In this document: in pieces, positions 27,837-30,122 of the stretch
Layout: every line of letters begins with the position of its first letter
How positions within the stretch are numbered: position 1 is the stretch's first letter
NCBI RefSeq assembly: GCF_000336635.1
Contig: NZ_AOLY01000005.1
Location: 105,758-169,757, forward strand
Origin: Haloarcula japonica DSM 6131
GTDB lineage: Archaea; Halobacteriota; Halobacteria; Halobacteriales; Haloarculaceae
Reading direction: 5' to 3'
Length of the DNA: 64,000 nt
The notes under the pieces: generated by a model
Told to the model about the DNA's origin: nothing
What the model saw: only the letters and a program-made list of their open reading frames with translations
Databases searched by the model: none
Translations under genes and position numbers: made by a program

Positions 27837-28865
27837 GTGCTCGGGTCGATACCGGACCTGCTTCGGCTGGTCGCCGTCCCGGTGTTCGGGTGGGCGGCCT
27901 ACCGTGATGTGAAAACCCGCCGGGTGCCGAACCGGACCTGGACCCCGCTTGCTGCGCTGGCGGTCGTACTCCTGCTGTGGGACGCCTACTCCGTTTGGAC
28001 CGGCCCGACAGCGGTCGGCCAGCGCCTGTTTCTCATCAGGGTCGCGATCAGTCTCGGCTTCGTCATTCCGCTGTCGTACGGCTTCTGGCTCATCGGCGGC
28101 TTCGGCGGTGCTGACGCGAAGGCGTTCATGCTCGTCGCCGTTCTCTTTCCCGTCTATCCGGTGTACTACCTGCCCATACCAAGCGTCGCGCTCCCGCTCC
28201 AGCAGACCGCTATCGGCGTGTTCTCGCTGACGGTGCTCTCGAACACTGTGCTTGCCGGCGTCGTCTACCCGCTGGCCGTCGCCGCCGGAAACCTCGCCAG
28301 AGGACGGTTTTCGCTGGCGATGTTCATCGGGCGGCCCGTCGCCGCCGCCAGCGTCACCGAGGAGTACGGCCGGCTGCTCGAATCGCCCGACGGGTTCGAC
28401 CGCGGCGGCCTCGACCTTGATGCCCTCCGGATGTACCTCCAATGGCGCGGCTGCTCACTCGCTGATATTCGTGTCGACCCCGAGCAGCATCGGCGTCCGA
28501 TCTCTCTGCCGGCGGTCCCGAACGATCCCGGCGACGGCTCGCTGGCGACCGACGGTGGCGACCCGGTGGCCGGCGACGGGACGAACGGTCGTGATGACGG
28601 TACCACGGCGGAGGCCGTGACTGATGCCACCGACCAGATCGACGATCCGTGGGGTGCCGAGCGGTTTCTCGCGGACATCGACCACTCGGCCTACGGCACG
28701 TCGCCGGAGCAACTCCGTGATGGACTGGACGTGCTTGTCGAACAGGACGAGGTGTGGATTTCGCCGGGGATTCCGTTCCTCGTCCCGATGTTCGCCGGGC
28801 TTGTCGTTTCGCTCACCTACGGCGACGTGCTGTTCTCGCTGTTGCAGGCGGTCGGGCTGGCCTAA
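27837..28865 (+). CDS. Type IV prepilin/preflagellin peptidase (A24 family)
   Basis: A 342-residue membrane protein. The two catalytic aspartates of A24 peptidases are visible in [11 protein letters not shown] (about residue 24) and in [11 protein letters not shown] (GxxD motif, about 90-100). About six helices are followed by a hydrophilic domain (about 180-310) and a final helix. It should cleave class III signal peptides of pilins and archaellins inside the membrane. The long soluble insert before the last helix is unlike the short bacterial enzymes. I chose GTG at 27837; TTG at 27825 is an alternative. Confidence 0.82.
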
Positions 28866-28891
28866 CGGCAGTGTTTAATTTAGCACAAGCA

Positions 28892-29144
28892 CTTAACAGA
28901 GCCAGAAAGCCCCCGTGCTATCGGCTCCTGCGACTCGCTGCGCGCGCTTCGCGTGCTTGCGTCGTCGGAGCCGATAGCACGGCCCCTTTCAGTCCCATGC
29001 CAAGCCGGTTGGACAATCCAAATAGGCGGGACTGAAAGGGGGCGGCTGGCTGCACTCCTGCGGCTCGCTCCGGTCCTCGGTCGTTTCACTCTCTCCGTTC
29101 CTTACGTCGCCGGGGTTCGTGCAGCCAGCCGGGGCTTTCTGGCT
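28892..29144. repeat. Nested cloverleaf palindrome: three abutting hairpins inside an outer inverted repeat
   Basis: This fills most of the 396-base gene-free stretch 28866-29261. The outer stem 28901-28913 pairs perfectly with 29131-29143 (13 bp). Inside, with almost no unpaired bases between them, lie hairpin 1 (28913-28928 with 28967-28982, 16 bp, 38-base loop), hairpin 2 (28983-28996 with 29028-29041, 14 bp, 31-base loop) and hairpin 3 (29044-29055 with 29119-29130, 12 bp, 63-base loop). The loop of hairpin 2 has its own 5-bp stem TTGGA-caa-TCCAA. No coding potential. CTTAACAG occurs at 28892-28899 and again at 29163-29170. Confidence 0.85.
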
Positions 29145-29163
29145 GTTGAGAACTTCTAGTGGC

Positions 29164-29216
29164 TTAACAGTTGTTGGTAATACGGTTTCATTATTCAGAA
29201 TGGATACTGGAATTAG
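29164..29216 (+). repeat. Left inverted repeat of the toxin-antitoxin cassette
   Basis: It pairs with 30003-30055 in inverted orientation; by my alignment 46 of 53 positions agree, including a 17-base perfect core (GTTGGTAATACGGTTTC). It begins TTAACAG at the outer edge and ends CTGGAATTAG at the inner edge. Confidence 0.85.
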
Positions 29217-29225
29217 TAGTCTGAA

Positions 29226-29259
29226 CGAAACGGTTATGACTATCCCACTCTAAGTGGGA
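29226..29259 (+). promoter_or_regulatory. Promoter and palindromic operator of the toxin-antitoxin operon
   Basis: A BRE-like CGAAA (29226-29230) and a TATA-like GGTTATG follow in order. Then comes a perfect palindrome TCCCACT-cta-AGTGGGA (29243-29259), ending two bases before the antitoxin ATG at 29262. The TATA-to-ATG distance implies a leaderless mRNA. The palindrome overlaps the expected start site, where an AbrB-type antitoxin would repress its own operon. Confidence 0.7.
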
Positions 29260-29261
29260 AT

Positions 29262-29546
29262 ATGGCTAAGGTGGATTCAAAAGGTCGAATTGTCCTCCCA
29301 CAGGAGGTGCGAGAACGTCTTGGTATAAACCCCGGTACAGAGGTAGACATCCACGAAGAGGGCGGGAAAGCTATCGTTGAACCAGAAGACAACCCCGAAA
29401 AGATTATCGAACGCATGGAGCAACTCGTTGAAGAAACGTCTTCAGAACGTAGAGAGACGACCCCGCTCGACAGGGGAAGTGACCCAATTGCTCAGAAACA
29501 CAGAGACGCTGTTCGAAGAGGAGTGGAAGAAAACAGTGATGAGTGA
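29262..29546 (+). CDS. AbrB/SpoVT-fold antitoxin (VapB/MazE-like)
   Basis: A 94-residue protein. Residues 1-45 are a swapped-hairpin AbrB domain: VDSKGRIVLPQEVRERLGINPGTEVDI, the standard DNA-binding half. The C-terminal half (about 50-94) is charged and should wrap and inhibit the toxin. It overlaps the next gene by eight bases (ATGAGTGA), typical of toxin-antitoxin pairs. Codon use is visibly more AT-rich than the flanking chromosome, a sign of transfer. The pair is enclosed by inverted repeats. Confidence 0.88.
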   Translation: MAKVDSKGRIVLPQEVRERLGINPGTEVDIHEEGGKAIVEPEDNPEKIIERMEQLVEETSSERRETTPLDRGSDPIAQKHRDAVRRGVEENSDE

Positions 29547-30006
29547 CGTTGGTGGCCCGTATCTTTTCGATGTCGGTGTGATTGCACTTGCACACACAGA
29601 GGCTCCTGTTCGTGATGCAGCACTCTCATACGTCCGTGATGCCATCACTGGTGACATAGATGCCGTTGTCCCATATCCCACGCTGTTGGGCGCACACACT
29701 GTCCTGACGACGTACTACGGACGGTCAAATGCAGATGCGTCCCGACTGCTACAGAATTTTATGGACGCGAAACGAATCCATTGGTACGACGGGATGACCG
29801 AAGACATAGTTCAAGGAGCTTTTGCTCAGGCGAGTGAAGCCAATGTTGGTGGATGGGACGGGTACTATGCTCAGGTAGCGATTGACGAAGGGGTGGAGAC
29901 AGTTTTGACTATTGATGACGACTTCAAACGATTTGATGTGTTCGATACCGAAGTCATTCTTTCATCCGACGAATTTAGAGAACTGAACAGGTTCCTTGAA
30001 AACTAA
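29539..30006 (+). CDS. PIN-domain toxin (VapC-like ribonuclease)
   Basis: A 155-residue protein starting [22 protein letters not shown] acidic residues are visible: Asp in LFDVGV (about 11), the Glu/Asp pair around DGMTEDIV (about 95), and Asp in GGWDGYY and TIDDDF (about 115-133). The fold predicts a Mg2+-dependent RNase that cuts tRNA or rRNA unless bound by the antitoxin. The frame is open upstream to 29377, but the overlapping ATG at 29539 is the natural start. The right inverted repeat begins at its stop codon. Confidence 0.85.
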
Positions 30007-30055
30007 TTCCAGAAGTTACTCTGAATAACGAAACCGTATTACCAACTACTGTTAA
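30003..30055 (-). repeat. Right inverted repeat of the toxin-antitoxin cassette
   Basis: Inverted copy of 29164-29216. Its inner edge overlaps the toxin stop codon (TAA 30004-30006) and its outer edge is CTGTTAA at 30049-30055. No clear target-site duplication flanks the pair. Confidence 0.85.
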
Positions 30056-30122
30056 CGAAATATCGTTCCACCTGACCTCCTGTTGCAGAAGACCTATTTT
30101 GCGGACACGCCTCGGCCCGAGT

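Follow-up and report, generated by a model that had tools for sequence, protein, structure and literature searches.

A high-copy palindromic element family of Haloarcula-type archaea, probably a non-autonomous MITE of IS6 type

The palindromic sequence that lies between pibD and hisI in Haloarcula japonica DSM 6131 belongs to a dispersed family whose members, judging by their ends and flanking duplications, are probably non-autonomous MITEs of IS6 type with a palindromic core, mobilised in trans. The family is scattered through Haloarcula-type archaea, where a single genome can hold as many as about 70 copies, and the complete core is found repeatedly with its three-arm plan unchanged. The copy that led us to it is located in a 64,000-nucleotide stretch of contig NZ_AOLY01000005.1, here called the window, to which all positions refer. 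Its parts, and those of its surroundings, are as follows.

28859..28866, + strand: candidate left target duplication GGCCTAAC, at the end of pibD
28867..28899, + strand: IS6-type left end GGCAGTGTTTAATTTAGC..., 33 bp, by comparison with class I ends (see below) and IS6 elements
28900..28913, + strand: 5' arm of the outer stem, AGCCAGAAAGCCCC, a constant sequence of the family
28914..28981, + strand: arm 1 hairpin, with a copy-specific 15-bp stem (28914-28928 / 28967-28981)
28982..29042, + strand: arm 2 hairpin, with the nearly constant stem CCCCTTTCAGTCCC / GGGACTGAAAGGGG (28983-28996 / 29028-29041)
29043..29130, + strand: arm 3 hairpin, with a copy-specific 12-bp stem (29044-29055 / 29119-29130) and a loop homologous to that of arm 1
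29131..29144, + strand: 3' arm of the outer stem, GGGGCTTTCTGGCT
29145..29168, + strand: right-end remnant GTTGAGAACTTCTAGTGGCTTAAC, by comparison with class I right ends
29164..30055, + strand: vapBC-type unit, outside the MITE, encoding an AbrB/MazE-type antitoxin and a PIN (VapC-type) toxin
30069-30076: candidate second target duplication CACCTGAC, 5/8 identical to GGCCTAAC

The window copy forms a cloverleaf, in which a perfect 14-bp outer stem (28900-28913 / 29131-29144) closes three hairpins of 15, 14, and 12 bp, with 0-1 base unpaired at the junctions; the arm 2 stem gains one further pair across a bulged G. A first-pass annotation, made from the letters alone, had given the four stems as 13, 16, 14, and 12 bp, which is right to within 1 bp, and had correctly described an outer stem closing a three-hairpin multiloop with hardly an unpaired base between the stems. 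The related loop starts that it saw in arms 1 and 3 correspond to an 18-base similarity of 89%. The element is larger than the 253 bases noted at that time, as it includes the left end (28867-28899) and the right-end remnant (29145-29168). The core of about 240-245 bp holds no transposase gene, and the open reading frames in it are only short and overlapping. Comparison of fold energy with shuffled sequence, which the annotation had proposed, sets this copy far apart: the RNA fold of the 253 bases reaches -158.7 kcal/mol against -102.3 +/- 5.4 for shuffles (z -10.5), the DNA fold has a z of -12.2, and none of 200 shuffles attains the value of the window copy in either fold.

Recurrence is extensive. 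When 60 relatives were searched at the DNA level, 41 gave family matches, and the exact outer arm AGCCAGAAAGCCCC is present in 33 of the 60, in whole-genome counts that range from 0 to 147 per genome with both strands counted (118 in G002, 116 in G010, and 147 in G025); one complete copy contributes two outer arms. A reversed-pattern control for the outer arm gave two matches in total over the 60 relatives. The copies are intergenic and lie near gene ends; many are truncated, and others carry internal deletions. Phage records contained no match to the element, and plasmids a single, weak one. A literature search, which covered neither ISfinder nor subscription journals, returned no paper on this palindromic family. 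In G025, runs of N fall inside palindromic cores (L188-L190, L196, L197, L199, L201-L203), that is, assembly gaps lie within the elements, which suggests that these elements may also break short-read assemblies.

Full copies combine a constant outer arm and a middle arm of nearly constant stem with arms 1 and 3, whose 12-bp stems are copy-specific and whose loops are homologous throughout the family. Read from the copies, these loops can occur in either orientation. The loops resemble each other because arms 1 and 3 share an origin, and in this sense the earlier proposal that the hairpins arose by copying has gained support. Among 73 parsed cores, the arm 1 stem shows 59 different pairings and the arm 3 stem 56, yet the stems are perfect over 12 bp in 37/73 and 40/73 cores, respectively. 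Watson-Crick pairing within copies amounts to 74% in arm 1 and 86% in arm 3; when strands are shuffled between copies, it falls to 43% and 52% (maxima 49% and 56%). The arm 1 value is too low, since misparsing of tandem outer arms affected some loci. This covariation, which had been suggested as a check, proves that the two strands of a stem are coordinated. Selection and template-switch correction both fit: the stems may stay matched because hairpins are selected for, or because template switching from one arm to the other at replication corrects quasi-palindromes. Several loci (L099, L108, L117, L124, L125, L102) carry tandem outer arms, up to six, at a spacing of 45 or 54 bp; some units in these arrays are identical, and others have differing spacers.

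The assignment to IS6 is based on the copies that we term class I. Their termini, GGYNGTGTTTAGTT..., lie exactly 34 bp beyond the core and are those of IS6-family insertion sequences from the same genus. In G025, for example, many near-identical copies have GGTAGTGTTTAGTTTAG... and GGTGGTGTTTAGTTAGGCG... as their ends, each at 34 bp from the core. Over all loci, both ends are present in 31 copies, with an end-to-core distance of 34 bp in 29/31 at one end and 31/31 at the other. The flanking 8 bp agree at all eight positions in 13 of these copies and at seven in 6 more (19/31), whereas only 0.11% of mismatched flank pairs agree at 7-8 of 8 positions. Two insertion sequences of about 697 bp (L214 and L220) have their outermost 14-19 bp in common with class I; L220 carries the duplication GTTTAAAC, and the proteins of both score 182-185 bits against the NCBIfam IS6 transposase model NF033587 (cut-off 125). 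With IS6-matching ends, an 8-bp duplication at the level of the family, and no internal transposase gene, class I has the attributes of an IS6-family MITE. From the ends and duplications we infer movement by an IS6 transposase: such a DDE enzyme would cut at the two 34-bp ends, the outer 14-19 bp or so of which are IS6-like, and the three-arm palindromic core, which lacks a transposase gene, would be carried along as cargo.

The window copy matches class I at its left end, which measures 33 bp against 34 in most family members, and is incomplete at its right end, where the outermost 10 bp or so (TAAACAC...) are absent. In the window, pibD, which encodes the type IV prepilin peptidase, and hisI are separated by the element together with the vapBC-type unit; in at least a dozen relatives the two genes stand side by side without either insert, which constitutes an empty site. 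The vapBC unit is flanked by 54-bp imperfect inverted repeats (29164-29217 and 30002-30055; 47/54 identical) and abuts the MITE, whose right end is recognisable to 29168, where the vapBC repeat takes over. A toxin-antitoxin pair between inverted repeats could be a mobile unit of its own. The right end of the MITE, next to this unit, was most likely overwritten or replaced later, so that the window copy is probably no longer mobile by itself. Because only five of eight positions agree between its flanking octamers GGCCTAAC and CACCTGAC, the insertion history of this copy is read from the family. Of the options listed in the first-pass annotation, the non-autonomous element is supported: copies are dispersed and have fixed boundaries, 8-bp duplications occur in the family, empty sites exist, and relatives encode an IS6-family transposase that matches.

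Many cores contain smaller palindromes. In 92 cores we counted 152 perfect small hairpins (stem of at least 7, mostly with a 3-base loop), 135 of them in adjacent pairs and 17 single. By spacer and position, the pairs can be sorted into families: TGATCA/TGATGA in the loops of arms, TGCT and ACTAA in the interval from arm 2 to arm 3, and GGGCA/TGCCC at the base of an arm. Here too the stems are copy-specific. On either side of one pair family in arm 2 stands the same 8-mer, GGGACTGA (L088 and L095; its complement in L116), a duplication as long as that of IS6. Orthologous arms with and without a hairpin pair exist (L227 and L013), and by a comparison of positions in G002, about 19 of the 22 copies of the commonest hairpin had an exact outer arm no more than 500 bp away. 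Two adjacent hairpins inserted as one unit, as in known double-hairpin elements, are found as modules in family cores; in the window copy no such insert is present. The core would appear to provide a landing site for double-hairpin inserts, so that hairpins come to lie within hairpins. The earlier idea of a recombination or integration target is partly true, in that cores of the family receive such insertions.

IS6-type ends do not explain the whole family, because the core also occurs in many copies without them: about two-thirds of outer-arm flanks lack IS6 ends. Many flanks of these class II copies are bounded by CTAG, a rare tetranucleotide (35 in the window against 210 expected), which is found on both sides in L013, L118, L119, L124, L109, and their orthologues. 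CTAG lies 27 to 75 bp from the core, at distances divisible by three (counts by phase 90, 13, and 2). Orthologous flanks are about 60-75% identical, or differ in length by multiples of three, in the midst of adjacent DNA that is 93-100% identical (for example, L124 vs L255 and L119 vs L252). Within triplets, the first position is purine-rich and, between orthologues, the most conserved (0.11 vs 0.19 and 0.17), yet the flanks are not coding. Protein coding was rejected: although frame 0 does seem depleted of stops, TGA is no rarer than its neighbouring codons, and in-frame stops are present whichever way the flank is read. Class II copies show no consistent target duplication, and CTAG as a plain 4-bp target duplication was discarded, as the empty sites lack a consistent CTAG. 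At several loci (L118, L089, L251, L248), the CTAG boundary provides the TAG stop of the upstream gene; at loci without the element (L249, L250, L264-L266), the last codons of the upstream gene differ. At one locus, two genomes (L229, and L233 from the window's own genome) keep both flanks but have lost the core, between 4-bp repeats (ACAG); the right flank there lacks one base, which puts it out of triplet phase. One tentative and, in our opinion, rather doubtful reading of class II treats the core as a module in its own right that has two carriers. The second of these would be a new kind of archaeal element, CTAG-bounded and located at fixed intergenic positions, and its hypervariable, triplet-phased flanks would perhaps reflect a protein that binds or builds them in 3-bp steps.

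The same observations bear on the question of what moves. If the core were the true mobile unit, passing between carriers by a hairpin-dependent route such as that of a Y1/HUH single-strand transposase (cf. IS200/IS605, PATEs, and REPINs), the outer ends would be secondary. In favour of this are the presence of one core in two unrelated contexts, IS6-type ends and CTAG-bounded segments, the loss of the core alone with retention of its flanks in L229 and L233, and the resemblance of the paired hairpins with 3-base loops to IS605-type ends and to the terminal-only PATEs of about 52 bp (PMC3119063). We nevertheless consider this unlikely, since the duplications and ends of class I are of DDE type and lie exactly 34 bp from the core, and no core was clearly identified outside the two flank types. 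Integron attC sites were also considered and set aside; reasoning from sequence, the GTTRRRY-like motifs are in the wrong orientation.

A conserved structured RNA, or a cis-acting mRNA 3' element that has multiplied, would account for the strong folding, the massive compensatory variation of the stems, and the intergenic position close to gene ends. The first-pass annotation had mentioned a structured RNA; nothing found here speaks for it specifically. The same covariation is predicted by palindrome correction at the DNA level, the orthologous site is empty in those dozen or more relatives, outer arms vary between 0 and 147 per genome within one genus, and many copies are truncated, with internal deletions in others. 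Rfam yielded no gathering-level match for the window copy, the two chance-level ones being far below the cut-off. We regard this explanation as highly improbable. Template switching creates perfect hairpins, and a single mutational or chance event of that kind at the window locus could in principle have produced the cloverleaf; the annotation had reserved this verdict for a sequence with neither recurrence nor compensatory change. A dispersed, recurrent family of constant plan, with covarying stems and fold z values below -10, refutes it.

The IS6-type MITE that we favour can be set beside several known systems. REPs are short and conserved in stem sequence, whereas the family here has copy-specific stems and, in class I, DDE-type duplications. 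High-copy intergenic palindromes that are often paired are common to it and to REP/REPIN (BIME) sequences with their RAYT transposases (PMC2817692). A review of IS6 describes 8-bp duplications, halobacterial clades, and two MITEs of 227 and 336 bp (PMC7986276); IS6-type ends, the 8-bp duplication, and the absence of a transposase gene are shared with such MITEs, whereas the very high copy number and the three-arm core with copy-specific stems are features that an IS6 MITE need not have. The SMRs and PATEs of Haloquadratum walsbyi (PMC3119063) are likewise numerous, transposase-free palindromic repeats of haloarchaea that nest in palindromes, and those PATEs that consist of termini only, at about 52 bp, are similar to the double hairpins of family cores. 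PATEs, however, lack terminal inverted repeats and target duplications, both of which class I possesses, and SMRs lack duplications and any relation to known transposons, whereas class I ends match IS6; class I is therefore neither. Class II copies, CTAG-bounded and without a consistent duplication, stand nearer to SMRs. The mitochondrial double-hairpin or repetitive hairpin-forming elements of Allomyces and sponges (PMC2800124) also consist of paired hairpins that have entered intergenic DNA as well as each other; here, in contrast, the pairs reside in archaeal chromosomes, inside a MITE core, with one family showing an 8-bp duplication.

For haloarchaea, the result is a palindromic repeat family of high copy number for which a candidate transposase can be named, boundaries can be tested, and empty sites are available. 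Its stems vary freely without losing their perfect pairing, which makes it a natural experiment in the maintenance of long palindromes, whether by selection or by template switching. The nested double hairpins, moreover, extend to archaeal chromosomes a phenomenon known mostly from mitochondrial DNA.
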